Source: Antedon bifida (taxonomy: Eukaryota; Echinodermata; Crinoidea; Comatulida; Antedonidae). From it: a stretch of DNA of 64,000 bases. Position 1 is the stretch's first letter; each line of letters starts with the position of its first letter. Under the pieces are notes generated by a model that was not told where the DNA came from, made no database searches, and saw nothing but the letters and a program-made list of their open reading frames with translations. Location of the stretch: NCBI GenBank assembly GCA_963402885.1, contig OY727094.1, forward strand, positions 27,034,501 to 27,098,500, given 5' to 3'. The position numbers were made by a program, and so were the translations under genes. Below are positions 2,284 through 55,125 of this stretch, piece by piece.

Positions 2284-2361
2284 CCCTTTACATTGTACTG
2301 TATTTTCATTCAATTTAATGTATTGCAGATTTCACAATACAAACAATAACACAAAATATAT

Positions 2362-2440
2362 TTCATTTCGAAACCTGAGCTGCACTGACGAGATCTAATT
2401 AGATCGAAACAGTACTGTCTGCAGATTGGATATATGTACA
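2362..2440 (+). ncRNA. Hammerhead ribozyme, complete, type I topology
   Basis: A self-cleaving RNA motif with every canonical part. Stem I is CTGCA (2380-2384) with TGCAG (2420-2424), five pairs. The core CTGACGA is at 2385-2391. Stem II is GATCT (2392-2396) with AGATC (2401-2405), capped by AATT. The core GAA is at 2406-2408. Stem III is ACA (2409-2411) with TGT (2416-2418), capped by GTAC. The cleavage triplet GTC ends at 2419. The 10.1-11.1 G-C pair and the A15.1-U16.1 pair are both present. The chain ends open at stem I, which defines type I. In animals such motifs occur in Penelope-like elements and in small non-coding retrozymes that yield circular RNAs. Which host element this copy belongs to is not resolved. 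Confidence 0.88.
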
Positions 2441-2504: not shown

Positions 2505-2768
2505 TTTCCTAGACTATGGGAGCAAATACCAAATGACATAAAAGATTCACAAACAATTTCAATATTTAAGGCTGCTCTAACAAAACACTATATTTCATGT
2601 TATGTATAATTTATTTGTATTTTTCTTGTATATGGTTTTATCTTTAACTGATTGTATTGTATGGAGTGAGTGCAGAATCTGTTTGGGCTTTAGCCTATTC
2701 TCATTCCTGGTTATTTTTACATTGATGACCGAATAAATATTATTATTATTATTATTATTATTAAAAAG
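2505..2768 (+). mobile_element. LINE 3' end with (ATT)n tail
   Basis: The piece begins in the C-terminus of a LINE ORF2 (RLWEQIPNDIKDSQTISIFK, then AALTKHYISCYV and a stop). It continues through a 3' UTR with GAGTGCAGAATCTGTTTGGG and ends in GACCGAATAAATATT followed by ATT repeats. The same 3' UTR occurs at 45,105-45,200, so these are two insertions of one family. The copy is 5'-truncated. Confidence 0.8.
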
Positions 2769-2863: not shown

Positions 2864-2988
2864 GAAACGCGGTTTACTGTTGAATAATGTTTTGGCACTG
2901 ATTGGAGCCCTTTTCATGGGGTTCAGCAAACAAGCAAACTCATGTGAAATGCTTATCATTGGACGGTTCGTGATCGGAATTAATTGTG
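2864..2988 (+). CDS. GLUT exon (TM3 region), first in window
   Basis: Acceptor TTTTTACAG and donor GTATGT flank a 125-bp exon read in phase 1. It gives [20 protein letters not shown] and, at its end, [15 protein letters not shown], the GLUT TM3-TM4 start. It lacks the preceding conserved R-x-G-R loop, which belongs to an exon upstream of the window. Confidence 0.93.
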
Positions 2989-5900: not shown

Positions 5901-8900
5901 GTAAACCATCATGTGTGGTCTTCAAACGTGTCAACTTTAATTAAGCTATAATATTGAACTCTTAATAATTATTTGTCCCTCAACAAAGTCAATATTTGTA
6001 TATTACAATCAAGTGTAAACTGCAATGCATGTTAATATTTTAACAAAAACAGTCAGGGGCTAACAGCTATATAGTGCACTAGTTAACATAAAAAAAAACA
6101 AAAAAAAATCATATTAAAATAATTGAATGACACTGTCAATAGTTTAGTGAATGTACACTAGTATTTTAATAATGTATTCGTCATCAGTTATTATTTTTAA
6201 GCAAGTAGGTGGTCTACCATCTGTACTAATCAAATAAAGGGATTGATTTTAATCAATTTAATATTAAATCCTGACATTTTAATGATTTTGCCCATTGAAA
6301 AATATAAATAAATAAAAAAATATTTAACGAGAACCAATCATGTCGATTAATTAATCAATTATAGATTAAATCCAGATGTTGTAATGATTTTGCCATTGAA
6401 AAATAAAAATATAAATAAATAAAAAAATATTGAACGAGAACCAATCATGATTAATTAATCAATTATACATTAAATCCAGATGTTGTAATGATTTTGCCAT
6501 TGAAAAATAAAAATATAAGTAAATAAAAAAATATGTAACGAGAACCAATCATGATTAATTAATCAATTATACATTAAATCAGATGTTGTAATGATTTTGC
6601 CATTGAAAAATATTATTTACCAATAACCAGTTATAATTAATTATTTGATTAAAAAATAAATAAAAAATATTGTTTAAATAACAGAACTGCATGACTATTT
6701 ATAGATTTTTCATCTCTTGATTGCTGGTAATCTAAATCCTATTAACCAATTTACAGGAAAAATAACCATCAATATTTAACATTTTGCTTTAATTTCGTTA
6801 TTACCTCCGCCAGGTTATGTGGTCGATCTCGTGTGTTTGTGTGTGTGTGTTTGTTTCTTTCTATATTTGTGAGTTAGCAGGATTACTCAAAAAGTTATTG
6901 CCCGATTTTCATAAGATTTTTAAGGATGGTTTTATAGCTGTATATGAACACGTCATAAATGTTCATATGCCTAAATGGAGGTTTGCGCTATCTGAGTGCC
7001 CTTCTAGTTATAAAATGAAGTACCGTATATTTCGGTGTATAAGTCGCACTTTTGACACGCAAATTTGACCTCTAAATTAAGGGTGCGTCTTATACACCGA
7101 ACATAAATGCCTCACCACACAGATTGTACATATAGGCCCTATCGTCACCTCGTTGGCTAGGCTAGGCCTGAGTAGTACTAACGTAACGGCAACCTGCTTC
7201 TGCCTAGTTTTCAATGCATTTTAGCGTGATGTTATACTAAATATGAAAAGATTTGTTCATTATGGAGCTGTTTTAGGCGCTCCGTTAAAATGTCATTTGT
7301 AAACGTTTACGATTGGATTGGAATAGTATTTATTTATAGTTTTACGCACGATCGCCGACCGCCGTACCCCCAGCGCAAGCCCTTCTCGGCGGCCACATGG
7401 TGTACGGTATTCGACTGGTATATTCTCCAGTTGATTATAGCATGGACCTAGCGTACACACTTCTCGGATACATAGATACTAATTGAATACGATTGTCCGT
7501 GAAAACGTGCGCCCTCTCGAAATGATCGAGCGAGGCTAGCCCACACACGTGCGTGTTACACACACGGTCATGCACTCGATGTTGCGGGTGCGAAACTCGT
7601 GAATAACAAGTTAGAAAGAACTTGTTGAGACTTGGTGCGGCCGAGCCTAGGTAAGAAAAAACCTAACTAAAGGACGCCGTTGTAGATATAACAAAATATA
7701 TTATTACAATAATATTGATTACAATTTAAAAAAACATTGTTTTGATGAAATATAAAGTGCGTCTTATACATCGACGATATAAAAAATACCGATATTTTAC
7801 TCTCAGTTAGGGGGTGCGTCTTATACACAGGTGCGACTTATACACCGAAATATACGGTATATCATTTCAGGTTTTGTTTAAACATTACCGAATGCAAGGG
7901 TCATTATAAGTTAACTAGTGCACTAAATAACTGTTAGCCCCTGACTGTTTTTTTAAAATATTAACATGCTTTGCAGTTTACACTTGATTGTAATACACAA
8001 ATATTGACTTTGTTGAGGGACAAATTATTATTAAGAGTTCAATAGTATAGCTTAATTAAAGTTGATATGTTTGAAGACCCACACATTTGATTCACAGTTA
8101 ACCTACATTTATACAGTATTTGTTCCAGTTCACAGAATGGAAGAATATGCTGCTGTAAATGATATACAAATAATGAATGTTTATCAGTGCAATGGAACAA
8201 ATAATTTCATGATGTGAAAGTTGAAAGGTTAAATAGAACCAATTTTTATCTTCCACTGAATCAAATGACTAGAATCCGCTAGATGAGTTATAAAAAAATC
8301 ATATTAAAATAGTTGAATGACACTGTCAATAGTTTAGTGAATGTACACTAGTATTTTAATAATGTATTCGTCATCAGTTATTATTTTTAAGCAAGTAGGT
8401 TGTCTACCATCTGTCCTAATTAAATAAAGGGATTGATTTTAATCAATTTAATATTAAATCCTGACATTTTAATGATTTTGCCTTTTTAAAAAAAAATATA
8501 AATAAATAAAAAAATATTTAACGAGAACCAATCATGATTAATTAATCAATTATACATTAAATCCAGATGTTGTAATGATTTTGCGATTGAAAAATATTAT
8601 TTACCAATAACCAGTGATAATTAATTATTTGATTAAACAATAAATAAAAAATATTGTTTACAGAACAGAACTGATACTACTGATGCATGACTATAGATTT
8701 TTAAAGATAGTTTTATATCTGTATATGAACACGTCATAAATGTTCATATGCCCAGATGGAGGTTTGGGCTATCTGAGTGCCCTTCTAGTTATAAAATGAA
8801 GTATATAATTTCAGGTTTTGTTTAAACATTACCGAATGCAAGGGTTCGAGGCCCATTCGCCCCATGGTTCTGTTGGTACTGTAGAACCAGTCTTCTCAGA

Positions 8901-11900
8901 TAAGGGCTATAAACCGTAGGTCCACTCAAAATGCTTGTGTGCACTTCTACCTAGTACATCTATCGAGACAAATAGGGACTTATCCCTGTGTACTAGTTCA
9001 CACATCAACTGTCTTGGACAGACGAATGAGCTCTAGAATTGGCAGCACTGACATGACGTCACCCTTGGGGAGAAGCATGTAGTTGAAAAGTGTAACATCT
9101 AAAGTACACAGCGCCATGAGCAATGATCGTTGGAATGGCGCTATATAAATTGAAAATATTAGATTAATATGAATCAGCGGATTCATAAATAAGTTCATTA
9201 TTAAGAATGTTTTGTATTTGTTGAATGAGCAGAATGTTTTTAACTCAATGAATAAAATCTGATCTGTTCAGATTAAAATTGCAGTCAACCGTTCAACTCA
9301 TGGAAATATTCTCATCATTATTCTTTACCTAAATCTTGTTCTTTAATTTCCGAAAGTCAATTTACTAATTATGTCTGAAGATTCAGTTAAAATTAAACAA
9401 TTATTTATGTTTAATGATTCAATTGTCAAAAATATTTATGTTTAAATGAGAACAATTTATTTGTTAAAATAATACTGATCATAACTGGGTCCTCTGAGAG
9501 ACCAATCTTTGACTGAAGAAGTTACCCAGTAACTATAAATAAATAAATGAATAAGAAATAAGAAATTACAAGAAATTATAACATAAAGAGTTCAATATTA
9601 TTATTATAGCTTAATTAAAGTTGATACGTTTGAAGACCACAAATTTGATTCACAGTTAACCTACATTATACAGTATTTGTTCCAGTTCACAGAATGGAAG
9701 ATGCTGCCTCTAAATGGTATACAAATAATGAATGTTTATCGGTGCAATGGAACAAATAATTTCATGATGTGAAACTTGAAAGGTTTAAATAGAACCAATT
9801 TTCCTCTTTCATGTACCAGTAGGTTAATATTAATGTCTTCGTCATCAGTTATTTTTATGCAAGTAGGTTGTCTACCATCTGTCCTACAGTAATTAAATAA
9901 AGGGATTAATTTTAATCAATTTAATATTAAATCCTGACATTTTAATGATTTTGCCCATTGAAAAATAAAAATATAAATAAATAAAAAATTATTTAACGAG
10001 AACCAATCATGATTAATTAATCAATTATATGTTAAATCCAGATGTTGTAATGATTTTGCCATTGAAAAATAAAAATATAAATAAATAAAAAAATATGTAA
10101 CGAGAACCAATCATGATTAATTAATCAATTATACATTTAAATCCAGATGTTGTAATGATTTTTCCATTGAAAATATTATTTACCAATAACCAGTGATAAT
10201 TAATTATTTGATTAAACAATAAATAAAAAATATTGTTTACAGAACAGAACTCATACTACTGATGCATAACTATTTATAGATTTTTCATCTCTTGATTGTT
10301 GGTAATCTAAATCCTATTAACCAATTACAGGAAAAATAGCCATCAATATTTAACATTTTGCTTTAATTTCGTTATTACCTCCACCAGAGTGGCGAGATGT
10401 TATGTGGTCGATCTCGTGTGTTTGTTTCTTTCTATATATTTGTGAGTTAGCAGGATTACTCAAAAAGTTAATTTCCCGATTTTCATAAGATTTTTAAGGA
10501 TGGTTTTATAGCTGTATATGAACATGTCATAAATGTTCATATGCCTAGATGGAGGTTTGCGCTATCTGAGTGCCCTTCTAGTTATAAAATGAAGTATATA
10601 ATTTCAGGTTTTGTTTAAACATTACCGAATGCAAGGGTTCGAGGCCCATTCGCCCCATGGTTCTGTTGGTACTGTAGAACCAGTCTTCTCAGATAAGGGC
10701 TATAAATCGTAGGTCCACTCAAAATGCTTGTGTGGACTTTAAAAGAACCTAGTACATCTTTCGAGACAAATAGGGACTTATCCCTGTGTACTAGTTCACA
10801 CATCAACTGTCTTGGACAGACGAATGAGCTCTAGAATTGGCAGCACTGACATGACGTCACCCTTGGGGAGAAGCATGTAGTTGAAAAGTGTAACATCTAA
10901 AGTACACAGCGCCATGAGCAATGATCGTTGGAATGGCGCTATATAAATTGAAAATATTATATTAATATGAATCAGCGGATTCATAAATAAGTTCATTATT
11001 AAGAATGTTTTGTATTTGTTGAATGAGCAGAATGTTTTTAACTCAATGAATAAAATCTGATCTGTTCAGATTAAAATTGCAGTCAACCGTTCAACTCATG
11101 GAAATATTCTCATCATTATTCTTTACCTAAATCATGTTCTTTAATTTCCGAAAGTCAATTTACTAATTATGTCTGAAGATTCAGTTAAAATTAAACAATT
11201 ATTTATGTTTAATGATTCAATTGTCAAAAATATTTATGTTTAAATGAGAACAATTTATTTGTTAAAATAATACTGATCATAACTGGGTCCTCTGAGAGAC
11301 CAATCTTTGACTGAAGAAGTTACCCAGTAACTATAAATAAATAAATGAATAAGAAATAAGAAATTACAAGAAATTATAACATAAAGAGTTCAATATTATT
11401 ATTATAGCTTAATTAAAGTTGATACATTTGAAGACCACAAATTTGATTCACAGTTAACCTACATTATACAGTACTAGTTCCAGTTCACAGAATGGAAGAT
11501 GCTGCCTCTAAATGGTATACAAATAATGAATGTTTATCGGTGCAATGGAACAAATAATTTCATGATGTGAAACTTGAAAGGTTTAAATAGAACCAATTTT
11601 CCTCTTTCATGTACAGTAGGTTAATATTAATGTCTTCGTCATCAGTTATTTTTATGCAAGTAGGTTGTCTACCATCTGTCCTACAGTAATTAAATAAAGG
11701 GATTAATTTTAATCAATTTAATATTAAATCCTGACATTTTAATGATTTTGCCCATTGAAAAATAAAAATATAAATAAATAAAAAATTATTTAACGAGAAC
11801 CAATCATGATTAATTAATCAATTATATGTTAAATCCAGATGTTGTAATGATTTTGCCATTGAAAAATAAAAATATAAATAAATAAAAAAATATGTAACGA

Positions 11901-14900
11901 GAACCAATCATGATTAATTAATCAATTATACATTTAAATCCAGATGTTGTAATGATTTTTCCATTGAAAATATTATTTACCAATAACCAGTGATAATTAA
12001 TTATTTGATTAAACAACAAATAAAAAATATTGTTTACAGAACATAACTCATACTACTGATGCATAACTATTTATAGATTTTTCATCTCTTGATTGTTGGT
12101 AATCTAAATCCTATTAACCAATTACAGGAAAAATAGCCATCAATATTTAACATTTTGCTTTAATTTCGTTATTACCTCCACCAGAGTGGCGAGAGGTTAT
12201 GTGGTCGATCTCGTGTGTTTGTGTGTGTTTGTTTCTTTCTATATTTGTGAGTTAGCAGGATTACTCAAAAAGTTATTTCCCGATTTTCATAAGATTTTTA
12301 AGGATGGTTTTATAGCTGTATATGAACATGTCATAAATGTTCATATGCCTATAGATGGAGGTTTGCGCTATCTGAGTGCCCTTCTAGTTATAAAATGAAG
12401 TATATCATTTCAGGTTTTGTTTAAACATTACCGAATGCAAGGGTTCTAGGCTCATTCGCCCCATGGTTCTGGTGATACTGTAGAACAAGTCTTCTCAGAT
12501 AATGGCTATAAATCGTAGGTCCACTCAAAATGCTTGTGTGGACTTTAAAAGAACCTAGTACATCTTTCGAGACAAATAGGGACTTATCCCTGTGTACTAG
12601 TTCACACATCAACTGTCTTGGACAGACGAATGGGCTCTAGAATTGGCAGCACTGACATGACGTCACCCTTGGGGAGAAGCATGTAGTTGAAAAGTGTAAC
12701 ATCTTTAAGTACATAACGTCATGAGCGATGATCGTTGGAATGGCGCTATATAAATTGAAAATATTATATTAATATGAATCAGCGGATTCATAAATAAATT
12801 CATTATTAAGAATGTTTTGTATTTGTTGAATGAGCAGAATATTTAATAATGAATAAAATCTGATCTGTTTGTCCATTTTATATCAGGTCTGTTTAAATTA
12901 TTAAAATTGCAGTCAAATATTCTCATCATTATTCTTTTACCTAAATCTTGTTATGAAAGTTAATCAAACAATTATTTATGTTTAAATGAGAACAATTTCT
13001 TTTTTAAAATAATACTGATCATAACTAGGTCCTCTCTGGGAGACCAGTCCTTGACTGAAGAAGTTACTCAGTATAAATAAATAAATGAATAATAAGAAAT
13101 TATAACTGTGAACAGGTTATTTTATGGTGTTTTTGTTTTGAATAATGCCATGCTAAATTGAATGTCTATTTTTGAACAAGCAATTGAATTACTATAATGA
13201 TTATTATTATTATATTTTTACAGTAAGGCGGAGCCCATGATTGCCTTAATACTAGATTTATGTTATAAATAATGCTGGTGTGTAAGGATTGTACAGTATG
13301 TACTTTTTGCTGGTAGAAAGTTAAATTGATATTCTCGCATTTAACAATACTATTATATTTATTATTAAAACATGGTTATTTAAATTGAATGTCTATTTAT
13401 CTATTTTTGAGCAAGCAATTGAATTACTATTATAATAATAACTAGACATGAAACTCGTCACTTTGACGAGTTAGTTATCCGCACAACGACAAACGCCACG
13501 TGCACGTCATACGTTGGAATATTGCACACAGATAAAGATTATGGCATTATGACAAGAACTGAAGAATATGATATGCTGTTAGTGCTGAATTCTGTCAATT
13601 TGTGTCATATAGTATATACATGCAAAGAGTATAATCTGTATACATATTACATACAGTGTAGAATAGGTGAAATTACGGGACCCGCCATTTATTCCAATTT
13701 TTAACATGGCGACGGTATCAAAATGAAACACTTAAATAGCAATTTCTGGAGGAAATTATCTCAGGAACAACATATTAACGTGTAGAAGAAATTTGAATAC
13801 GTAAAATATAGATGCGCACCCTTTTAAATGTGATGAACTATTACGCAAAATATGAAAATACGACTTTTTTTATTCAACTGGCCATATGATGACGTCACAA
13901 CATCCGATTGGCAAAATGTTTACATGAATTCGTATCTACAATCCAATAGCTTCCAGAAAACGTTTTAATCGTGATTATCACATTTTATTCTTACGAGCTA
14001 TTACAGATTAAAATTTACTGTAAAGATGAAATTAATGACCCACGTAATTAAAATTTTTAGGCATGATGACGTCATAAAAATTAAAATATTTTTATCTCAT
14101 GCTAAAGAAAGTTGATTGACCTACACAATATATAAATTTAGGAGAAAAAGGAATACAGATAAGCGTGATGCGCTCCATTGAATGTGATGAGCAATAACGA
14201 AAGAGACAAAAATCCTAATTTTTACATTCGTGTGGCCATACGATGACGTCACAATGTTTTTTAGCCTTATCGATGCATGATCCGATATCTACAACTCATC
14301 AACTTCTAGATTTTGTAATAAAAATTAACGGTTCACGGTTTACTTTAGAAACTATGACTGTTTAAAAAAAGACATAATTTTGACGATTTTTTAAGCTTTT
14401 TCATAAAAAACGCGCACGAATTGTCTAATTCAACGTGTTCGTATGGCGTTATTTAAACTGGAAAAGGTCTAAATTGTTTTCAAAATTACTAGGAAAGACT
14501 TGAAAAATATAATTCAAGAGAAAAAAATATGTTTTTAACGCTACGTGCGCACCGCGTGCGTAAAAAATTGCGCGCCCGTGGGAATTTTTGACATGCTCAA
14601 AATGACAAGAAACGCATAAAAAGTTGATTAGAAATTAATTTTGCGCATTTTGAAATTTTAAATGCGCGTGCGCGCGTAACTTCTTGTGAAACATGCCATT
14701 TTTAATCCGTAGAAAGTTTGCCCCTGATATGACTTAAATTTTGTCAAAGTGTCAATACTAAATGACTTTTGGTTTTTAATCTATAATCAATCATTGAAAT
14801 TCATAAAATTGCGCGTAAGTCACGTTGCGCAACTATGACGTCATTCAAAAATAGGAGGTGCACAACTTCACGTAAATGCCCATATGTTGTCAAAGTTATG

Positions 14901-37726: not shown

Positions 37727-37940
37727 TATATAATATCTATATGATAGTTCACTTGCACTGATGAAGGGCTAGTGTTGCCCGAAAGCTCTGCTAACTTTTC
37801 TGGCTGTTTTACTTTATCGTTTTGATTTAGCTTTTCGCTTTTTTTTATATCTCCATTGCGATCCAGCCACTGATACCCACAGCATGGTCATTTTTCAGTA
37901 TTTTGCCCTTGGATTTATAATATCCATATGATATATATAC
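37727..37940 (+). mobile_element. Penelope-like element fragment with hammerhead-type core
   Basis: The ~170-bp insert holds CTGATGA (37,758-37,764), a GGGC/GCCC stem (37,766-37,769 with 37,777-37,780), GAA (37,781-37,783) and a three-pair stem AGC/GCT (37,784-37,786 with 37,790-37,792) with a TCT loop. These are stems II and III plus the core of a minimal hammerhead as described in Penelope-like elements. A pairing stem I was not found. The sequence then runs TTCTGGCTGTTTTACTTTAT to ATCCAGCCACTGATACCCAC. The near-identical direct repeats TATAATATCTATATGATA and TATAATATCCATATGATA flank the insert and look like a target duplication. Confidence 0.55.
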
Positions 37941-42662: not shown

Positions 42663-43572
42663 ACACGGTTATGTAATAATTACAATTGATGCAAAGAAAC
42701 TTTAATAATGATAATAAACAATTATAAATATATATTTTCCCTCTGAATTTAAGTTTTTTTTAATATGTCATTCTAATGTGACATAATAGATATATAAGTT
42801 AAATATTTACCTTTAAAAACTATAATTTAAAGCAAAAAATTGTAAAATTGACTGGAAGTAACTGGGGTTTAAAATGCAGACGTATTTGACTAAAATAGAT
42901 AACACGAGTCGGAAATTGTAATAGAGCAAGTTTGTGTAGAAATAATGATATTTTGATAATGTAGTATATATTGATAGACACATGATTCCGGCTTACGGTA
43001 TTATACGATAATATAATAAATAATATTTATGCAATACATTTAATTTGTTTATTTCACGATTAGCAATCAATTATTATCCGTTATCAATAAATATCTATAG
43101 TAACATAGTGTATTGGCCTAAATAACAAGATATGTGAATAATATGTATCTTTATTACCCTTACTTAGAACACACACGAAAAAAAAGTAATTTAAAAAGTA
43201 TTTTTTTATAATATAAAATTAATATAATAATAAATTTAATAAATACTACATGGACTTTTGTAATGAATAATGAATAATGTCAATCATCATAATCATGTCA
43301 ATTATTCAAAAATAGCTTTTTGTAGATAACCCCTTTTCTCAAAGTAGGGCAGTATACGGTAATTGAATACATACTCCTTATGCAATACATTTCATTTTTT
43401 TATTTCACGATCAACCAATTAAATTAATGTGTCTCATGATAAATGAGTGCCTTTTTATTTTATGGTTAAATTTACCCACATTTTGCTCACTTGTGTAGTT
43501 TGTTTTTATTCTAAGCTTTTTATAGATACCATTTATTTTTTTAACCTTTATTTTATTTTTTTAAGGTGAAAA

Positions 43573-44709
43573 ATGAACAAATCAACGTTTTACACTGATT
43601 CAAATATTGTGAATGAGTCGACGACTGATGTCATAGGAACAGTTGAGGAGACCGATTGGAATGACGTAATCAAATCGTACTCCTATACAACTTCAGATGA
43701 AATTGTTATCTCAATATTTATGCCAATTGTTGTAATTATCGGTATTATTGGGAATCTAATGACAATCACTGTAATAGTGAAACATCCTCGCATGCGCACA
43801 TCAGTCAACGTGTATTTAGCCAACTTGGCGATTGCTGACGTTCTGTTTCTTTGCTTTGCTCCTGATCTGATATGGTCATCCTTTGCGCAAAGTCCATTAC
43901 ACGATGCATTTGACATGAGCATCGGAGAGGATATTCTATGGTTTTGCCACTTGAACTTTTACATCGTGGACACTGCGTTGCAAGTTGCAAGTTTCACAAT
44001 CTTCTGGATGTCTGCTGAACGATACATTGCAATTTGTCACCCTTTGAAATTTCGGAACAGTAAATTTGGAGAACGTTCGAGATCCGTACAAGTCTGCGTT
44101 ATCATGTGGCTGATATCCTTAACATGGCAGGCCCGGAAATTTACTTGGATCGCTATAGTTTCATATGAATTCCCATGGCCTGATATGTATAACGGGGCTC
44201 CAAATTCAACGATAGTATGTACTTACTGTGATCCGAACACCGACAGTTGTGATTTTCAAAATGATCTTTTTGTGATCGATAGTTATTTATCGTTAACCCT
44301 AATAACAATTGTAGTTGGTTTCTATACAATAATCCTGATTACACTCAAAAGATCAACCTTTGCAACAGCCAATTCAACGGGTAGTAAAGCAAGGTCAAAA
44401 TCAGAAAAAAAGGTCTTTATGACGATCTTCCTAACTGTAACTATCTACATATTTTGTATGGCACCATTCTCAATTATGAACCTTGTGTATATCTACCATG
44501 ACATTGACCTTAATGTTATACTTCAGATTGTCAACATATTTCGTGTTGCACTTTATACCAATTCATCCATTAATCCTTTCATATATAATGTTGTAAATGA
44601 AATGTTTAGGAAAGCATTTGTCGATGTTTTCTGCAGACTGCGAAAGAGCAAGAAGACGAGTGGAGTTACAGTAGTTTCACAGACAAACCCCGCTTACGTC
44701 AATGGATGA
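43573..44709 (+). CDS. Rhodopsin-type GPCR, peptide-receptor-like, intact (378 aa)
   Basis: A seven-helix plasma-membrane receptor. The single coding exon has a start at 43,573 and TGA at 44,707-44,709. The N-terminus has N-glycosylation sites at N2 and N14. TM1 includes GIIGNLMTITVIV. TM2 has LANLAIAD with the conserved Asp. C125 can pair with a cysteine in loop 2 (C216 or C219). The DRY motif is ERY (149-151). Loop 2 holds FPWPDMYNGAPNST, the array's signature. TM6 reads CMAP (295-298), so the toggle tryptophan is absent. TM7 ends NPFIY (334-338). Two AATAAA signals follow at 44,859 and 44,897. It is the most diverged member, and the only one on the + strand. Ligand unknown. It fits lineage-expanded orphan rhodopsin receptors of echinoderms, which are candidate chemoreceptors. 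Confidence 0.95.
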   Translation: MNKSTFYTDSNIVNESTTDVIGTVEETDWNDVIKSYSYTTSDEIVISIFMPIVVIIGIIGNLMTITVIVKHPRMRTSVNVYLANLAIADVLFLCFAPDLIWSSFAQSPLHDAFDMSIGEDILWFCHLNFYIVDTALQVASFTIFWMSAERYIAICHPLKFRNSKFGERSRSVQVCVIMWLISLTWQARKFTWIAIVSYEFPWPDMYNGAPNSTIVCTYCDPNTDSCDFQNDLFVIDSYLSLTLITIVVGFYTIILITLKRSTFATANSTGSKARSKSEKKVFMTIFLTVTIYIFCMAPFSIMNLVYIYHDIDLNVILQIVNIFRVALYTNSSINPFIYNVVNEMFRKAFVDVFCRLRKSKKTSGVTVVSQTNPAYVNG

Positions 44710-45059
44710 CCATTTAATATATTTGTTAATATTAAACTGTTTGTCAAATTACATAGAAGATACACATTACTACAGTAGTTTTATTGCACCTTTTCAGTTT
44801 GTAGCCTATGTCTACAGAGCTTAGAGGTTTCACGACATTAGGCGTTATATGAATCCATAATAAATTATATATTATAATTTAAACACTTTTATCTTGAATA
44901 AAATTTCATTTTTTAAATCCCAGTGTTGTTACATTTGTATTTCACGTGAACTCCGTTTGCCGTAGAGGCGAGTATTATGTATACGAGTTACACCATACCT
45001 TCCCACTAAATATGACAAAATGCATTGTACTCTGCCTGCTTCTTAACAAAATTCACACT

Positions 45060-45200
45060 TGAAAGAAAAGAAACATTGAACATAATTCAGAGCCTGGAAT
45101 AGACTGCTATGAGCGAGTGCAGAATATATTTGGGATTTTTAGCCTAATCTCACTCAGTTATTTTTTGGTGACCGAATAAATATTAGTATTACTATTTTCA
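45060..45200 (+). mobile_element. LINE 3' end, second copy of the 2,505 family
   Basis: GAGTGCAGAATATATTTGGG .. TAGCCTAATCTCACTCAG .. GTGACCGAATAAATATTAGT parallels 2,660-2,760. Only the 3' UTR remains. The CCTGGAATAGACTGCTATG just before it may be the end of ORF2. Confidence 0.72.
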
Positions 45201-45227
45201 CCGTAGCGGCTAGTTTTGGTTCTAGAC

Positions 45228-45472
45228 GGCGATTTGGTCTAATTTTCATAAAAGAAAATAGTTGGCATACACGGCGTGCCATAACAACTATACTTCAGCT
45301 GGAAGCTATTTGTTTTACGATAGTTACGCAATGATTCGTTAGAATTCCTATTCTTTAAATAATAACTGCGCATACACCTTAATCACAGCTAGGATCGTGA
45401 AATTTGCATAATTATAATGTTTAAACCATAGAGGGGGCTATATATTGCATCTGAAGATTTCCAAAAAATTAA
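45228..45472. repeat. ~250-bp dispersed repeat, copy 1
   Basis: GGTTCTAGACGGCGATTTGG .. GTTAGAATTCCTATTCT .. GCTAGGATCGTGAAATTTGC is repeated at 46,495-46,755. The first ~90 bp is also present at 55,568 and 59,806 inside the GPCR tandem units. Non-coding, class unknown. Confidence 0.75.
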
Positions 45473-45667
45473 AATGCCCACTGGGGGCGCTAGTTTTAAA
45501 AGAAACACACGGGAAACTTTTTATATCTTCAACTGATTTATTTCTTCAAATGATTTATTTCCAAAATTGCATGTGATTGATAATAGAATAGAAATTTAAT
45601 ATGAAGCAACGCAGTATGAAAAACAAAAATAGCATACTCGTCAATGTGGCTCCCCTTATACATGGCT

Positions 45668-46067
45668 GTAGGCCCCTTTCACACAGAAAGAAAAACTCCG
45701 GAGACACTCCGGCGGTGTTTTAGTGTGAAAGGTAAAATCACTTATTTCAAAAGTCTCAGAAGTCATATAATGTTTTACTGATACTACTTATTTTTTAGAC
45801 CCGCTATATATTTTGTAGAAATAGTATTTTGAAATAAAACCAAATCAATGATTGATCGTGTGAAGATGGCCTTTTAATCTAAAAACTCCAGAGTTTGATG
45901 TTGGTACTTTTCACACCAACACACCGCAGTTCGCCCTCCGGAGAACGTTTAGCTGTTCAACTCCGCTGTTTTGAACTTCGGAGTTTGATTTTACCTTTCA
46001 CACCAAAACACCGAGGCGTCAACTCCGGAGACACTCCGGAGTTTGGCTTTTGATGTGAAATAGGTAT
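45668..46067. mobile_element. MITE with ~55-bp imperfect inverted ends rich in CTCCGGAG
   Basis: The left end CCCCTTTCACACAGAAAG .. AACTCCGGAGACACTCCGG .. GTGTGAAAGGTAAAATCA faces the right end TGATTTTACCTTTCACACC .. CTCCGGAGACACTCCGGAG .. GATGTGAAATAGG. About 400 bp, no ORF. Its target duplication could not be fixed, so the superfamily is open. Confidence 0.7.
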
Positions 46068-46124
46068 TTGTGTTAATATTCAGTAACATAACTGGCTCAT
46101 CCTGTGTGCCAGTTATGTGGTACA

Positions 46125-46205
46125 TATCATTTCAAAACCTGAGCTTCACTGACCAGATCTAATAACATCGAAACAGTACTGTCTGCAGATTAGATAAATA
46201 CATAC
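46125..46205 (+). ncRNA. Decayed hammerhead ribozyme, second copy
   Basis: Same order as the motif at 2,380: stem I region 46,144-46,148 with 46,184-46,188, core at 46,149-46,155, stem II 46,156-46,169, GAAAC from 46,170, stem III with its GTAC loop, and GTC. The shared block, including ATTTC and AACCTGAGCT upstream and TGTCTGCAGATT downstream, is about 80 bp. The catalytic core and two stems carry substitutions, so activity is not expected. It is a fossil of the same element family. Confidence 0.75.
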
Positions 46206-46494
46206 ATAGAAAAAGAACTATAAAAGTTTAATATAAAATGAAATAATATATTTGTTGTATTGATGTTTAAAAATATTACAAGTAAGATCAGTGTAAAACA
46301 TAGGCCTATCTTTCTTCTCAAAATAATATCAATTATTATAAATCTGTTTAAATATTATTGGACAAGCACGGCAGATATCTTTTACAGAATTTCTTCATAA
46401 GATCCACATTCGCGAAACAAGAATGAACTCGTCGTTCAAAAATTAATATTGAATAACCCACAAATAGAGTAATTCAAATTTGTCCAAAAGGTTC

Positions 46495-46755
46495 TGGTTC
46501 TAGACGGTGGTTTGGTCTAATTTTCATAAAAAGAAAATATTTTGGCATATACGGCGTTCCATAATAACTATACTTTACTGGAAGCTAGACTATTTTTTTT
46601 ATTTAGAGTTACGCAAATTAGTTCGTTAGAATTCCTATTCTGTAAATATAACTGCGCATGCACATTCATCGCACGCTAGGATCGTGAAATGTGCATAATT
46701 CTAATTTATAGATAGACTATAGAGGGAGCTATGTCGTATGAAGATTTTCATCCTA
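46495..46755. repeat. ~250-bp dispersed repeat, copy 2
   Basis: Second copy of 45,228-45,472 in the same orientation, about 85-90% similar by eye. Confidence 0.75.
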
Positions 46756-47329
46756 ATTTTTCTCATTGGCCGAATGGCTATTGTTCAGTAAATATCTGAA
46801 AAGCTGTATAAAAAACTCATTTATGTCATTAGATTCTTTATTTTCAGTTGATAGATTATTTGCATGTATAAAAAAACAATACTAGTCAAAAATAAACTGA
46901 CACGTGATCCATTTTATGTAGTGCCCTCTACCAATTGTTATAGAACCCTTTTTTGCTTGGTCACATTTTCCATTGCGCGAAATCAAATTACCGACAAAAA
47001 GAATTAACATTCCTATATTTTCACTTGTTGACAGATTCGAGGCCTACCACGCATCTTAATTGTTTTCACACATAATCACCCAATTAATCTTGACTTTCCT
47101 CCTTCAGAGATACGGCCTGTGAGTTTCTTTTAAACGCACCAACGATCTGGCGATGGTTTTATTATTAGACATTATAGAATAGTTTGATACCGTGCGTACG
47201 TGCGTGTAATAAATGCGTCAGATAATGCGTCAGATGTTAGCTGAGGGCGTTCAAACTCAACGCGAGACTCATGAGTGCTCCCTCTAATCCTCTATTATGC
47301 AAATCAAGAACTATACTTTTCGGATTGGT

Positions 47330-47465
47330 GCTGATTGGCAATGATGAGTTATATTTTAATTAAATTATAATATCAAATCCTAATTTCTCATGTTTATATA
47401 ATTTAATTTGTATGTTATTAATGTCATCGTTTGCATAAAGAATACCGTATAATAATAGGCATAAA
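47330..47465. repeat. GPCR 3' flank block, duplicated
   Basis: GTGCTGATTGGCAATGATGA .. TTTATATAATTTAATTTGTA .. CATCGTTTGCATAAAGAAT matches 52,235-52,370. It marks an ancient unit border of the GPCR array, here split from its gene by a MITE. Confidence 0.65.
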
Positions 47466-47805
47466 TTAAAGATGTATTGTTCTTCTGAAAAAATAATTCC
47501 TAACAACATTTTTGTTGAATATGCCATTTTAATGTAACATAATAGTTATCCACTTTGACCAAAAATTGGATTGAAAAAAAAATGTATTTACCTTAAAAAA
47601 CTGTAATTTAAAGCAAAAAATGGTCAAATTGGCTGCCAGCCAATGGGTTTTTGGTTGAATTTTACCATTTATTTTGTCATTTTATAAGTGAAAACATTAT
47701 TCTTCGGAAGCGATTAACTTTGTTAAAACTACAAAATAAAATATTCAAAATCTGATTTAATTATTCTGAATTTTTCATATTTTTGGGGGGACAATACATC
47801 TTTAA
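47466..47805. mobile_element. piggyBac-like MITE, copy 4
   Basis: TTAA + AGATGTATTGTTCTTC at the left and GGGACAATACATCT + TTAA at the right (340 bp). The interior is close to copy 1 (TAACATAATAGTTATCCACT, TTGACCAAAAATTGGAT). Confidence 0.83.
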
Positions 47806-47829
47806 ATATATATCTTTGAGTATTCTCTA

Positions 47830-48065
47830 CAAGTGAAACAAGACTAACTGCGTGTGGTTATTGGCGAGTGTGTTTTTGCGAACAAAATGTATTTAGAAAA
47901 GCTTTTCTAAACCCGTCATTTACAGCATTATAATATATCATATAATTGAATTTACCGACGAATTTATATATGCAGCAGAGTTGAGTGTTGAAATAATATG
48001 AGTTAGACTAGAATTTAGGTTGTAATTGAAAGTAGTATTTGTACTGATATAGTATAGAAACGTTT
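47830..48065 (-). pseudogene. GPCR TM7/C-tail relic
   Basis: On the - strand it reads LNSAAYINSSVNSIIYDIL, then remnants of FRKAFLNTF. This equals the TM7 end of the array receptors, with NPxxY changed to NSIIY and frame changes after it. Only the last ~70 codons remain. A similar relic lies at 51,735-51,905, and both share the upstream block ending GATATAGTATAGAAACG. Confidence 0.75.
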
Positions 48066-48069
48066 GAAA

Positions 48070-49090
48070 ATTCCGCGAAAATTTGTTGTCAGTTGTACGC
48101 TCCAGCAGCTGTTGCTCGCTTGTAGTTAGTACTGCATGAGTAACCATCAAACAATGACGGAATAGCGTGTTCTTATTAGATGCCATTGTTTTAAGTGACG
48201 TCACATTCACAAACAATACATTTTTAAATGGGGCCAAAAACAGATAAAGAAACAATTTCGGTTTAAATTTAATAATGAATGACGAGTGATAGGAAATCTC
48301 CCCTCCTGCAATGTTTAGCCCCGTGTGAAACAAGAGACCGGGACTTCTTATGAATTCTAAAGTTTTTTTTTACATAACATAATTTATTCATTGTTTCGCC
48401 ATTGTCTTTGTTTGCTGCGCATGCGTCGATCTTTAGATCTATATAAAACGTTCAATTTCGACTAGAACGCGGCCTTCTAGCATTCAGCTATGACCGTGTT
48501 TCCGCAGCAAAAGAAACCACTAAAAAAACCGATTAAACTTAAAAGTTTTTTTATTAAACTTTCTTGGGTTATCCTCAGTTCATTCAGTTAATACTGTTTT
48601 CTTGTACCTTTTCTTTTTTGTCTAAATCTGTATCTGTACGTAAATTTGAATGAACTGAAATAAAATGAAAAGAAAATATCTAGTCCATAGAAAGTGAAAT
48701 TAAATATGATAAACAAGACTGTACTAATACTACTACACATCTCAGGATGGCATTCCACTTGGAGAGCATCTGTGACTTATTTAAGACGTTGCCTATAATT
48801 AATCGTTGAGTCTAAAATTATTTCATTTAAATTGAGTCTACACATCAGGCCCTATACCGTATCGATTTTCTTACAAATTCATAAAAAAAAGGAATTCTAC
48901 ATTCCGTAAACATAAGGCTGGCACTAAAAATGTTAAGGCCTTTGAAACATTCTTAACCCATTATTGTAGCATACCTGGAGAAATCGCAAGGCACAATAAT
49001 GTAGCACAATACATTTACACAATATGATTTAATAAAACACATTTCACATCGACAGAACACATGCTAAATAATAATAGGCGCAATGTATAA
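48070..49090. other. Spacer with GPCR 3' flank of the frameshifted copy
   Basis: Positions 48,640-49,090 (AACAAGACTGTACTAATACT, CATCTCAGGATGGCATTCCA) are duplicated at 52,545-52,990 below the intact receptor. The left part contains CGTGTTTCCGCAGCAAAAGA, also present near 51,976. No other gene is seen. Confidence 0.5.
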
Positions 49091-49095
49091 ATTAA

Positions 49096-50174
49096 TTATG
49101 TGTCTTTGAGTATCCTACAAGTAACTACATGGTCATTGGCGAGTGTGGTTTTTGTGTACTTACAATAATTATTGCAACAAAGTGTATTTAGAAAAGCTTT
49201 CCTAAATCTGTCATTTAAAACATTATATATAATTGGATTTACTGACGAATTTATATATGCAGCAACACGTAATATATTAACTGTATTATTGTTATAATTA
49301 ACATTTCCATAGATTATAATAAAATTGAAAATCCCAAATGGTGCAGTACATACAATGTAGACGGTGACGGTCAGAAACACAGTCAGGAAAACTGTCTTCT
49401 CGGATTTAGATCTGAATTTGTTAACTGAATTGATTGCCATAAAGGAAGTTTTTTTAAGCGTGATTAACATTACCCTATAAAAGCTAGCAACAACTAAAAT
49501 AAGTGTCCATGATAAAGAAATATCGAACACATGAAGATAACGATGGATTTTACAGTATAATTCATCATCACAATAAACACATGTTGTTGTCGAATTTGGA
49601 ACTCCATTATACATGTCAGGCCAAGGAAATTTAATTGCGACCATTTCTACTCAAACAAGTTTCCTCGACTGCCATGCAAAAGTTATACACCATAAAAAGT
49701 TCTAGAAACCGATCCTGAATTATTGATCCGAAATTTAATAGGATAACAGATTGCCCGATATCGGTCGATGGACATTGCGAAGATTATGAAAATTGCCACT
49801 TGAAACATAGTATCAACAACGTAGAAATTGAACTTGCAAATCCATGTTTTTTCACCACCGACATTATAATCATCGCGTAGTGGGCCATCAACAATAGAAG
49901 TCCATGTCCATAATGATAAAACAGGTGCCAACGCAAGATACAACGTATCCGCAATCGCCAAGTTGGCTAAATACACGTTTACAGAAGTGTGCATGCGCTG
50001 ATTTCGCACTATCACAACGATAGTCATTATATTTCCGATTATACCAACAATAACTACAATCGGCATAAATACGACAATAACAATTTTGTCCACTAATGAA
50101 TATGAAATCAATTCAATAAGGTCATCCCAGTCGCTCCAATCATAATAATAACTGCTGTTGATATTGTCCATCAT
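49096..50174 (-). pseudogene. GPCR copy with frameshift at TM4 (array member b)
   Basis: Full-length relative of the intact receptor at 53,000-54,082. The 5' half (50,174-49,683) reads MMDNINSSYYYDWSDWDDLI through TM1-TM3, with IDRYRAICYP, to SVSRT. There a deletion of about 17-20 bp, compared with the intact paralogues, shifts the frame. The 3' half (49,644-49,096) resumes with FPWPDMYNGVPNSTTTC, TM5-TM7 (CTAP, NPIIY) and a tail ending CRILKDT. The N-terminus is nine residues shorter and the C-tail longer than in the intact copy. Apart from the deletion the reading frames are well kept, so inactivation looks recent. Confidence 0.85.
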
Positions 50175-50391
50175 CTAAAGAAATAAAATAAACTCAATAA
50201 ATGAATGATTAATGATTACCATTACAATAAACAGTACACATTCACAACTTATACGAACATGTCATGCTACAGCAATAAATACGTACAATTTTGCTGAATT
50301 TCAGTGTTTCTAACGATGTATCTATTGTAGGTACGAGTTGTGACCAACATGAAACCGATTACTGTGCAATGTGAATGAATACGTACTGTAC

Positions 50392-50764
50392 CACCCGATT
50401 CTGCTACTGTCCCTATGTGGTATCTGTAAAACTATAGCAAGTCATACACGTTGCTGTCTGCATAAAATGCTGTACTTTTAACACACGGTACACTGTCTGT
50501 AGCACAGTGTATGTTGACAATTTACAATGATGTACAACCATTGGCAGGTTTTCGTACTGCCATGCAAGAATGGATAGGTGTTTTCCGCCGCTTTTAGGCC
50601 TTCTAGTCAATTATTGTTATTGATTATACGAATTACGTAATTTAGTTTAGTAGCTCATCTACCTTTTTAGCAGAGCATAATGAATATTGTCGCTAGGCTA
50701 GGCCTACTAGTCTAGCCGGAAATAAACCAATTATTTCACCTAGGGACAGTAGCAGAATCGGGTG
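50392..50764. mobile_element. MITE with ~28-bp inverted ends, CACCCGATTCTG
   Basis: The left end CACCCGATTCTGCTACTGTC and the right end GACAGTAGCAGAATCGGGTG are perfect inverted repeats over at least 24 bp. The element is absent from the equivalent place (~54,300) of the next unit, so it inserted after the duplication. 373 bp, non-coding. Target duplication not resolved. Confidence 0.83.
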
Positions 50765-51010
50765 AAACAACGTATCCGCAATCGCCAAGCTTTTTTAATA
50801 CACGTTGACAGAAGTCCGCATGCGTTTATATCTAACAATCACAGTAATAGTCATTATCTTTCCAATTATGTCAAAAATAACTACAATCGGCATAAATATG
50901 GTGATTACGATTTTATCCACCATTGTATATGAAATCGATTGAATCTAGTCATCCCAATAATTTATATACATTGAAGAGTAGCCGGTCCATATTTCATAAC
51001 AATAGTCTGA
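50764..51010 (-). pseudogene. GPCR N-terminus/TM1-TM2 relic 1
   Basis: On the - strand it keeps YEIWTGYSSMYINYW, VDKIVITIFMPIVVIFDIIG and parts of TM2 (RYKRMRTSVNVY-like, LAIADTLF), with frame breaks and a truncated TM2. It resembles the N-terminal part of the 62,193-63,272 gene more than members b, c and d. Its start codon is gone. Confidence 0.75.
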
Positions 51011-51134
51011 TCTACTATATAGATATCGTAACTCGCCAGTAAGAGAGATAGTGTTATAGAAGGCTGAGTTTCTCCAGATAATTTTAATAGTATAATATGA
51101 ACATGTTAATTGTAAAGTTTCACAATATACATAC

Positions 51135-51300
51135 CATTTGTTATTTTCAGATGTTTGTAAAAACAGTCATGAGTTGATCACCTCTATTGACTGCAAAGAA
51201 AATTAAATGTAACTGCTCACTTAATTACCTGATGCATGACTTAAATAGACACTTTTTATAGTTCGGCCAATAAAACATGATGATTATGTACGTCATATTG
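51135..51300 (-). promoter_or_regulatory. Conserved promoter and 5' UTR exon block 1
   Basis: On the - strand it shows an inverted CCAAT (ATTGG, 51,267-51,271), then CTATAAAAAG (TATA at 51,252-51,260), then a UTR exon that ends AACAAATG|GTATGT. The block recurs at 55,001-55,125, 59,211-59,335 and 63,383-63,525. The donor is kept in all four. Confidence 0.55.
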
Positions 51301-51734
51301 TAAACACTAGCAACCTGTAAATGTCCGTAAATTTTGATTACCAAATGTCGTCTCTATACTTGGAAAATTATACGCGTGATCCGATGTGTTGATGAGGTAA
51401 GAGTGACACTGTCATAAAAGATAATAAAAATATTATTCTCTCAGGTATATTGGTAAAGAAACCCAATAGTACCAGTATATTCACAACAACTGCGACAGGA
51501 AGGCGACTTAGGTATATAGATGATGGAGGTACGGTATTAGTTTGTCACACTCCGTCCTCACTCAGAACAAAAAAAAAACAAAAAAACAAAAAAGAATGCA
51601 ATGGAAACGTATTATTAAGGATGCATATATTTTCAAATGTGATGATAATAATGAGTTAGTTAAGACCAAATATGAGATTAATACTACCAAACTTATATAC
51701 TCATGGTTTGTTAAAGAATATTTCATTATTCCAT

Positions 51735-51905
51735 AGCTTTTCTAAACCTGTCATTTACAGCATTATATAATTGGATTTACCGACGAATTTATATATGCAG
51801 TTAGAGTTAAGTAGAGTCTTGTGCGAGTTGAAATAATATGAGTTAAACTAGAATTTAGGTTGTAATTGAAAGTAATATTCGTACTGATATAGTATAGAAA
51901 CGCAT
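51735..51905 (-). pseudogene. GPCR TM7 relic 2
   Basis: Close copy of 47,908-48,065: YINSSVNPII.., FRKAM, with the upstream TACGAATATTACTTTCAATT. Only TM7 and the start of helix 8 survive. Confidence 0.7.
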
Positions 51906-52999
51906 GCGTCGCCTGAAGCGATATCCGGAAACGTTAAATTGCACGCCCTATAACCTTCAGCTATTCTATTTCTATGGCCATGTTTCCGCAGCAAAAAAAG
52001 AAAAAAAAAACGATTAAACCTAACCGATAATGTTCCAGTGGAAACGGGGTTTAACCGATTTCCCTCGAGAAAAATTAACCGATAAATATCTCATTAAATC
52101 ATATAATTATGCGATAATTTCTAAACTTTGACCTGAGGACACATTGTTGCGTTGTGATTGAGTTGAAAACCGTGGTAAGTTAAAACCTAAATTTTGCCTG
52201 TAAATTTCATCCAACATGTCTTTACGCTGGTGTTTCACACAGTGCTGATTGGAAATAATAAGTTATATTTTAATTACATTATAATATCAACTCCTAATTT
52301 CTAATGTTTATATAATTTAATTTGTATGTTATTAATGGCATCGTTTGCACAAAGAATAATGTATAAAAATAAGCACGTGTCTTTGAGTATGCTAGAAGTT
52401 AAACAGGAATAACTGCATTAATAAACTAAAGCATAATTACTAATTTAATTTGTATGTTATTAATGTCATCTTTTAGAAAAAATACCGTATAGTAATTCAT
52501 TTTCATTCAATCTTTTATTTTGGATATCTGGTTCATAGAAACTAAAATTAGATTTTAAATTAATTAAAAATAAACAAGACTGTACTAATTACTACTAAAC
52601 ATCTCAGGATGGCATTCCATGGAGAGCATATTTGACTTATATAAGGCGTTGCCTATAATCATTGAGACTAAAACAGTTTTACTTGAATTGAGTCTACACA
52701 TCAGGCCATATATCGAATTCTACATTCCGAAAACATGAGCCTGGCACTACAATGTTGAGGCCTTTGCAACAACATTTTTAACCCATTATTGTAGCATACC
52801 TGGAGAGATTGCAAGGTACCTTGATTATAGTTACACCATGATGTAGCACAATACATATTTACACATTTACAATTAAATATTTGTTCTAAATAAAATATAT
52901 TTCACATCGACAGAACATATGCTAAACATAATAGGCATACTGTATAAATAAATTATGTGTCTTCGAGTATGCTACAAGAAAAACAGGATAACCACATGG
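51906..52999. other. Spacer / 3' flank of member c
   Basis: Holds duplicates of 47,330-47,465 (at 52,235) and 48,640-49,090 (at 52,545). A GATTAAACC..GGTTTAACCGAT inverted element lies at about 52,010-52,090. No gene is seen. Confidence 0.5.
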
Positions 53000-54082
53000 T
53001 TATTGGCGAGTGTGTATTTTTTGTGTGTACTTACAATAATTATTACAACAAAATGTATTTAGAAAGGCTTTTCTAAACCTTTCATTTACAGCATTATATA
53101 TAATTGGATTTACTGACGAATTTATATACAGTGCAACACGTAATACATTAATGGTATTAACTATATTTTTATAATTAACATATTCATAGAGATAAATTAA
53201 TTTGAAAATCCCAAATGGTGCAGTACATACAATGTAGACGGTGACGGTCAGAAACACAGTCAGAAAAACTTTCTTCTCGGATTTAGATCTGGATTTGTTA
53301 ACTGAATTGATTGCCATAAAAGGAGATGTTTTAAGCGTGATTAACATTGCCGTATACAAAATAGCAACAACTAAAATAAGTGTCAACGATAAACATGTAT
53401 CAAACGTATAAAGATAACGATAGATTCTACAGTCTAATTCATCAACACAATAAGTACATACTGTTGTCGAATTAGGAACTCCATTATACATGTCAGGCCA
53501 AGGAAATTGAAATGGGACCAAGTCTACGCTAACAAGTTTTCTCGACTGCCATGCTAAAGCTATACACCATATAATGCAACATATCTTTATGGTTCTAGAA
53601 ACCGATCCTGAATTATTGATCCGAAATTTAATAGGATAACAGATTGCCCGATATCGGTCGATTGACATTGCGAAGATTATGAAAATTGCCACTTGAGACA
53701 TAGTATCGACAACGTAGCAGTTGAACTTGCAAATCCATGTTTTTTCAACACCAATATTAAAGTCGCTACGTAGTGGGCCATCAAAAAAAGAAGTCCATAT
53801 TAAATCAGGTACCAACGCAAGATACAACGTATCCGCAATCGCCAAGTTGGCTAAATACACGTTAACAGAAGTGTGCATGCGCTGCGTTCGCACTATCACA
53901 AAGATAGTCATTATATTTCCAATTATACCAAAAATAACTACAATTGGCATAAATATAACAATAACAATTTTGTCCACTAATGAATATGAAATCAATTCAA
54001 TAAAGTTATCCCAGCCGTACATGTCCGTCGAAGAATAGTCGCTCCAATCATAAGAATAACTGCTGTTGACATTGTCCATCAT
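53000..54082 (-). CDS. Rhodopsin-type GPCR, intact (array member c, 360 aa)
   Basis: The start ATG at 54,082-54,080 directly follows an acceptor (TTTCTTTAG). The N-terminus has NSS (5-7) and a Tyr/Asp-rich stretch. Helices lie at about 37-62, 72-95, 115-145, 166-184, 223-249, 270-296 and 311-332. Key sites: N56 and D84, C118 paired with a loop 2 cysteine near 209-212, DRY 142-144, PWPDMYNGVPNST 194-206 (glycosylatable), CTAP 286-289 without the toggle Trp, NPIIY 325-329, helix 8 FRKAF, and a Cys-rich CCNNYCK (345-351) likely palmitoylated. It is nearly identical to member d up to loop 2 and closest to b after TM5. Function: an orphan, probably ligand-gated G-protein receptor. Family-level peptide-receptor resemblance only. 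Confidence 0.95.
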   Translation of the reverse strand: MMDNVNSSYSYDWSDYSSTDMYGWDNFIELISYSLVDKIVIVIFMPIVVIFGIIGNIMTIFVIVRTQRMHTSVNVYLANLAIADTLYLALVPDLIWTSFFDGPLRSDFNIGVEKTWICKFNCYVVDTMSQVAIFIIFAMSIDRYRAICYPIKFRINNSGSVSRTIKICCIIWCIALAWQSRKLVSVDLVPFQFPWPDMYNGVPNSTTVCTYCVDELDCRIYRYLYTFDTCLSLTLILVVAILYTAMLITLKTSPFMAINSVNKSRSKSEKKVFLTVFLTVTVYIVCTAPFGIFKLIYLYEYVNYKNIVNTINVLRVALYINSSVNPIIYNAVNERFRKAFLNTFCCNNYCKYTQKIHTRQ

Positions 54083-55000: not shown

Positions 55001-55125
55001 GATTTGTTATCTTCAGATGTTTGTAAAAACAGTCATGAGTTGAGCACCTCTATTGACTGCAAAGAAAAATAAATGTAACCTGATGCATGACTTAAATAGA
55101 CACTTTTTATAGTTCGGCCAATAAA
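55001..55125 (-). promoter_or_regulatory. Conserved promoter and 5' UTR exon block 2
   Basis: CCAAT (inverted) at 55,118-55,122, TATAAAAAG at 55,103-55,111, donor AACAAATC|GTATGT at 55,001/55,000. See the block at 51,135. Confidence 0.55.

Follow-up and report, generated by a model that had tools for sequence, protein, structure and literature searches.

A hammerhead motif in a GLUT intron of the crinoid Antedon bifida: a probable retrozyme fragment and a candidate Penelope-like mobiliser

Results

The GLUT locus

The window analysed here is a stretch of 64,000 nucleotides from the genome of Antedon bifida (contig OY727094.1, positions 27,034,501 to 27,098,500). Near its start lies part of a GLUT gene, and an intron of this gene carries a hammerhead motif within a short repeated block. 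The initial annotation had placed the motif on the sense strand of a GLUT intron, and this holds: GLUT exons run on the + strand from 2864, the intron being deduced with its preceding exon outside the window. Since tblastn gave no matches in the window to the part of GLUT before residue ~90, the exon preceding this intron should lie upstream of the window. The features needed for what follows are listed below.

2357-2433 (+): very probable 5'-truncated retrozyme copy, unit positions 206-282 of 282, 97% identity to the unit at locus L007
2374-2429 (+): type I hammerhead ribozyme motif (outer helix I, CC/GG; internal loop, TGAG/ATT), from the sequence, a descriptor scan and a below-threshold Rfam match
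2380-2384 and 2420-2424 (+): stem I, CTGCA/TGCAG, read from the sequence
2385-2391 (+): catalytic core CTGACGA, read from the sequence and mostly retained across the family
2392-2405 (+): stem-loop II, GATCT-AATT-AGATC (GATCT 2392-2396, AGATC 2401-2405); the family loop is AATA
2406-2408 (+): core GAA, followed by A15.1 at 2409, read from the sequence
2409-2418 (+): stem-loop III, ACA-GTAC-TGT (ACA 2409-2411, TGT 2416-2418), that is ACAGTACTGT, read from the sequence
2419-2420 (+): predicted cleavage site C17|T, with C17 at 2419, from hammerhead geometry
2428-2433 (+): GGATAT, the fixed 3' end of the family, 14 nt beyond the cleavage site, found in 41 of 46 distinct copies
2864-2988 (+): GLUT exon downstream of the copy-bearing intron, from tblastn with human GLUT1, splice sites by eye
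37748-37923 (+): solo 3'-region piece of a putative Penelope-like element, with a minimal hammerhead motif, CTGATGA, at 37758-37764 and the tail CCCTTGGATTTATA
46087-46197 (+): second, decayed retrozyme copy with C in place of core G8 and a disrupted stem II, 82.4 bits with the family model R1, outside that model

A minisatellite of a 16-bp G-rich repeat (GTAGTTGTCCTAGGGG) at 2006-2282 adjoins the retrozyme copy. The initial annotation had noted it next to the ribozyme; it was not seen alongside 29 other copies, and its position here looks accidental. Just downstream of the copy, 2512-2765 (LWEQIPNDIKDS...) carries a (TTA)n tail and resembles, by eye, a non-LTR retrotransposon 3' end. Elsewhere in the window a ~104-bp tandem repeat forms three short arrays (6298-6612, 9912-10173 and 11709-11970), and a cluster of related neuropeptide-type GPCR frames and fragments occupies 43570-63272. 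One receptor gene tested from this cluster has its best matches in the crinoids Antedon mediterranea (75%) and Anneissia japonica (58%).

The hammerhead motif

All the core bases and the three stems claimed by the initial annotation were located, at 2374-2429 on the + strand. The motif has the bases and pairs of the type I core (C3 U4 G5 A6 N7 G8 A9, G12 A13 A14 A15, U16 H17 and the closing pairs), with the rules taken from the accessible part of PMC3088659. The outer helix (CC/GG, 2374-2375/2428-2429) is set off from stem I by the internal loop. For a possible contact between loops I and II the family offers the internal loop TGAG/ATT together with AATA, and the window copy has AATT instead. 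Of 58 sampled copies, 55 have A as the last base of loop II, and T is found solely in the window copy; presumably this base is a tertiary-contact position in the loop-loop contact.

The ten bases of stem-loop III form a perfect palindrome, so that two ribozymes could pair as a dimer. Since a short or palindromic stem III is tied to dimeric action in the accessible parts of PMC7229834 and PMC3088659, a lone ribozyme copy may cut poorly. With its 3-bp stem III and altered loop II, the lone ribozyme of the window appears to be a poor candidate for strong cutting.

A descriptor scan of both strands of the 64-kb window, with stems of at least 3, 3 and 2 pairs, found exactly one hammerhead motif. 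Of 11,757 dinucleotide-shuffled windows, 591 have a motif within these loose limits and 3 have one whose stems reach 5, 5 and 3 pairs or more, as in the window copy; about one chance motif of this stem length is expected over 315.6 Mb.

No Rfam family reaches its curated gathering threshold over the window. In a relaxed search of a 201-base stretch, HH9 (RF02275) aligned to 2368-2441 with 27.5 bits against a gathering threshold of 52 (E 3.5e-5 for that stretch), the RAGATH-1 hammerhead scored 16.1 of 56.3 bits, and three unrelated families matched weakly. Copies at four other loci scored 26.7-32.5 bits with HH9, also below 52, the highest being the copy in L007. We take HH9 to be the C10orf118 intron hammerhead of amniotes. 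It is the best Rfam match of the window copy and is like it in type I architecture and in having an internal loop in stem I, whereas stems II and III differ in sequence and the crinoid motif occurs as repeated mobile copies, not in one conserved intron. The initial annotation had named a below-threshold covariance score as grounds for rejecting the motif, and the Rfam scores do fall below threshold; this is outweighed by the family evidence given below.

Energy minimisation of the window copy and of the family sequence alike favours a competing structure over the hammerhead fold, by ~4 kcal/mol. Of 200 shuffles of the 76-base window stretch, 57 are as stable as the original. Within the family, no pair changed on both sides in 16 chosen copies, a set too uniform to reveal covariation. 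Taken alone, the motif in the window is a good candidate, short of proof.

A dispersed family with a 282-nt unit

We searched the genome (315,563,634 bases, 27 contigs) for a 40-nt core with up to 3 mismatches. There are 135 matches, 63 forward and 72 reverse, of which at least 53, among the matches listed, are exact. The reversed-pattern control gave 0 in the forward and 0 in the reverse orientation. Because about one chance motif is expected genome-wide, the 135 matches against none in the control are the decisive evidence, and because the Rfam families all stay below threshold, the identity of the motif as a hammerhead rests on these family copies. That the motif arose by chance would agree with the rare shuffled windows that reach its stem lengths and with the low Rfam scores, but the 135 core matches refute it, and we give it practically no probability. 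A pattern scan of viral contigs returned no matches.

Two longer searches gave the shape of the family: a 151-base query had at least 42 matches (the best 40 of 225 candidates scored), and a longer query had at least 50 (the best 40 of 233). The core-to-core distance in the tandem copy of L007 is 282 nt. Two-unit or partial arrays are present in L007/L044, L032, L033, L038 and L041, and L016 has three ribozyme pieces. The unit has a GC content of 41%, and folded as a circle it reaches -76.5 kcal/mol against -58.3 (sd 4.7) for its shuffles, 0 of 300 being as stable. The ribozyme is mostly kept: 46 copies span all 77 positions, five with indels were left unscored, and in the remaining 41 the core is kept in 37, all 13 pairs of the three stems in 33, and both in 30.

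Metazoan non-LTR retrozymes carry type I hammerheads in low-GC tandem repeats of 150-450 bp and give circular RNAs of ~170-400 nt, as described for coral, mussel and axolotl in the accessible part of Cervera and de la Pena 2020 (PMC7229834). Because of the 282-nt unit, the tandem dimers, the GC content and the stable circular fold, we assign the crinoid family to these elements and hold with high confidence that the window block is a fragment of one. The initial annotation had suggested a small retrozyme-type element and tandem dimers of ~200-400 bp. The tandem units of 282 nt fall within this range and the family stands, but the window block itself is a 5'-truncated fragment and not a dimeric copy.

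The longer copies have in common a sequence upstream of the ribozyme that is missing from the window copy. Similarity to the family ends at both borders of the window copy and begins at 2357, just upstream of the ribozyme, so that the window holds unit positions 206-282 only. The length of the copy is ~73-77 nt, since the initial four bases, TATA, may be target sequence. It differs from the L007 unit at two of 77 positions, namely position 3, which may belong to the target, and the last base of loop II. It scores 109.8 bits with the R1 model, being itself among the 16 model sequences. Two other candidate units or ends at this locus were rejected. The 8-bp repeat TGCAGATT, found twice 96 nt apart, would define a 96-nt unit, but its upstream half lies outside the shared block; the inverted repeat 2339-2364/2441-2466 was dropped as element ends because family similarity starts at 2357.

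A domesticated ribozyme would be a different matter. Intronic hammerheads such as those of amniote RECK and C10orf118 are thought to descend from such mobile elements (PMC6155905 and PMC3088659, accessible parts), and a ribozyme selected to cut or delay the GLUT pre-mRNA would account for the sense orientation in the intron, the intact core and stems, and the best Rfam match to HH9. However, the window copy is one of many dispersed similar copies, so its intactness is explained by youth. Moreover, one of its two differences from the unit falls on the last loop II base, and the HH9 score is below threshold. We therefore regard domestication as very unlikely. No signs of selection on the copy are indicated; it is young, single and 5'-truncated. 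We infer that it is a passenger in the GLUT intron with at most weak self-cleavage, although cutting of the GLUT pre-mRNA is possible. The window locus itself is ordinary, with one young intronic passenger among many copies.

Ends and targets of the copies

To describe the ends, the longest match per locus was taken at 60 loci and repeats were dropped, leaving 46 copies. Because the surveyed loci are the best-scoring matches and not a random sample, the length distribution is biased. In 41 of the 46 copies the 3' end falls 14 nt downstream of the cut site, at unit position 281-282 or 2 bases further. The 5' ends are spread over unit positions 9-279, and the copies are 77-569 nt long. Some clustering of 5' ends at 229-234 (4 of 46) involves too few copies for use. 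TATA or ATAT occurs within 6 nt of the 5' flank in 27 of the 46 copies, against a background of 5.5%, and exact junctions of the ribozyme end with TA sequence (CTGCAGATTGGATATATATA) number 60 genome-wide, with 0 in the control. Where metazoan retrozymes have target-site duplications, these exceed 4 bp; in the TA-rich flanks seen here, such duplications are indistinguishable from repeats (46 copies).

Had the ribozyme cleaved its own template, the copies should end at the cut site, whereas they end 14 nt past it. The copies were therefore probably not made from a cleaved linear monomer, and a circular template or an uncut multimer is the likely alternative.

A Penelope-like element in the same genome

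Many flanks of retrozyme copies contain a second repeat with the motif CTGATGA...GAAA. At L059 and L061 this repeat follows a frame that matches GIY-YIG with 18.9 of 22.6 bits, below the cut-off. For a sister fragment from L062, Pfam returned no families, and its best database relative (72%) carries PF01541. L064 has an open frame of 821 aa in which both RVT_1 (37.9 bits) and GIY-YIG (29.6 bits) score above the Pfam cut-offs, and the CTGATGA...GAAA repeat is situated after the stop codon of this frame. Because of these two domains and the repeat that follows the stop, we classify the element by sequence as Penelope-like, and the assignment rests on L064. An endonuclease query gave at least 150 matches (the best 150 of 360 candidates scored). 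In nine of ten 3' flanks (L065-L074) the element ends with CCTTTGGATTTATA (CAGTAATTTGCCTTTGGATTTATA), beyond which TA-rich sequence begins or the flank is soon reached; L074 is the exception. From our reading of the motif, the element appears to carry a minimal hammerhead; Rfam gave no matches to one in L064 up to E 1.

Since the genome carries solo fragments of this element, including window 37748-37923, one could take the intronic motif for a pseudo-LTR fragment, a remnant minimal hammerhead of the Penelope-like element. But the hammerhead motif of the Penelope-like element is of a different, minimal type with a different sequence, and the 282-nt unit has no blastn match (E 1e-6) in L064, so that we find this origin extremely improbable. 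The retrozyme unit also differs from Penelope-like elements in being, at 282 nt, too short for a reverse transcriptase and an endonuclease and in having a full three-stem hammerhead.

Association of the retrozyme with the Penelope-like element

A 3'-region piece of the Penelope-like element lies within 100 bp of 12 of 47 distinct retrozyme copies, some of these copies being in one array. Near the copies there are 14 hits in 9.4 kb against 0.89 expected, an expectation derived from 13 farther hits in 137.8 kb of flank and not from TA tracts. The pieces near the copies are in both orientations, not always tail-first. L053 has the order Penelope-retrozyme-Penelope in a single orientation with gaps of up to 7 bp, L060 has a retrozyme joined directly to Penelope, and L013 has Penelope joined directly to a retrozyme. 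Both elements have the terminal bases TTGGAT before TA; random ends would share at least six bases with a chance of 0.0015, in a post hoc test. The ten Penelope 3' flanks L065-L074, followed for ~230-350 bp beyond the 3' region, contain no retrozyme. Adjacent insertions could also arise without a shared enzyme, if both elements simply favour TA tracts.

Truncation at the 5' end with a fixed 3' end is a pattern of LINEs and SINEs too. A LINE in place of the Penelope-like element could therefore move the family, and LINE-like frames do occur in the loci (e.g. L026, L063), as does the LINE-like end at window 2512-2765 noted above by eye. However, no poly-A tail was seen at the 46 junctions, and the TTGGAT end common with the Penelope-like element, the TA-rich targets and the close junctions all speak against a LINE, which we think unlikely. 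We favor the Penelope-like element as the engine of the retrozyme, a preference that these sequence patterns make somewhat more probable than its opposite.

Discussion

The family described here is like the metazoan non-LTR retrozymes of PMC7229834, as far as the accessible part of that paper goes, in its type I hammerhead, a low-GC unit in the ~170-400-nt range, its dispersed and tandem copies, a strongly self-paired circle (here a predicted fold), and the presence of Penelope-like elements in the same genome. It is unlike them in having a crinoid host, and the window copy is a fragment without a second ribozyme. In addition, many copies here are 5'-truncated, have TA-rich targets and share a fixed 3' end 14 nt beyond the cut site, whereas the same source describes tandem copies, and a fixed end goes unmentioned in its accessible text. 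In the open papers searched we found no report of crinoid retrozymes or echinoderm hammerheads, and we do not claim a first report.

For the reinsertion of animal retrozymes, LINEs or Penelope-like elements are named in the accessible part of PMC7229834, the latter as a strong candidate. Poseidon of Anolis, a Penelope-like element with minimal hammerheads, encodes an enzyme that cleaves AT-rich targets and initiates synthesis at fixed internal sites; its genomic tails match the start sites of the reverse transcriptase, and partial tandems occur (PMC11167929, accessible part). The crinoid Penelope-like element fits Poseidon in its domains and fixed tail, and the copying habit reported in the accessible text for Poseidon resembles the pattern that the retrozyme copies appear to follow here. 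Our data support the published idea that Penelope-like elements mobilise retrozymes, without proving it.

We suggest the following route. The hammerhead would release monomers from transcripts of tandem units, and ligation would close these into circles, as in published retrozymes. With TA-rich genomic DNA as the priming site, a reverse transcriptase would begin at one set position shortly after the ribozyme (TGCAGATTGGAT) and would copy round the circle or along an uncleaved multimer. Because copying would halt at varied points, the copies would share one 3' end and range from a quarter unit to two units in length, as observed. The enzyme would most likely be that of the Penelope-like element of this genome, with its similar insertion habit and partly shared 3' tail. 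Taken as a whole, the explanation that the window holds a young 5'-truncated retrozyme insertion, copied from a circle or multimer by a Penelope-like enzyme, seems to us very likely.

A third repeat occupies the same TA tracts as the retrozyme. This is a tandem element of ~364 bp that carries a tRNA-Asp(ATC)-like gene (L018 987-1422, L061 2719-3837, L027 983-1359 and others). Counting repeats, 19 of the 60 retrozyme loci contain it, as do 3 of the 10 Penelope 3' flanks. Against RF00005, five of its tRNA genes in L018 and L061 score 55.7-57.9 bits and one degraded gene 25.8. It has TA-tract neighbours and a fixed 3' end (TTCTTTGCCT..TTTATATATA), and it shares TTTGCCT and TTTATATA with the Penelope tail. 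A search for a hammerhead in it found only CTGAGGA, without GAAA after it. This element could be a third client, or a sign that the tracts are generally attractive.

We hypothesize that one Penelope-like element carries a set of small parasites, each imitating part of its 3' tail, namely the retrozyme (TTGGAT before TATA) and the ~364-bp tRNA element (TTTGCCT...TTTATATA), and that copying of the retrozyme takes circular RNA as its template and begins at a single fixed site beyond the ribozyme. Circular RNA copied from one fixed site would give genomic 5' ends all around the circle. We regard this hypothesis as evenly poised between true and false; if true, it would provide genomic evidence for the mobiliser of animal retrozymes and for rolling copying of the circle. 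This compact genome holds a young retrozyme and a Penelope-like family in which at least one member has an 821-aa open frame; the 3' tail of that family is mapped, the two elements meet in close junctions, and the retrozyme copies have a fixed 3' end. Since these are combined in one genome, the question of mobilisation can be reduced to a simple in vitro test.

Two further arrangements were seen in the retrozyme loci. At L019 1475-1669 a retrozyme copy is followed by an inverted piece of its own 282-nt unit (160-222); inverted arrangements are known for Penelope elements (PMC3846280, accessible part). At L018 1742-1793, on the - strand and upstream of the retrozyme copy, there is a different type I hammerhead with stem I ATTCAC/GTGAAT and stem III ACA/TGT, which scores 26.6 bits with RF00163 (cut-off 34). 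The genome may therefore hold further hammerhead families.
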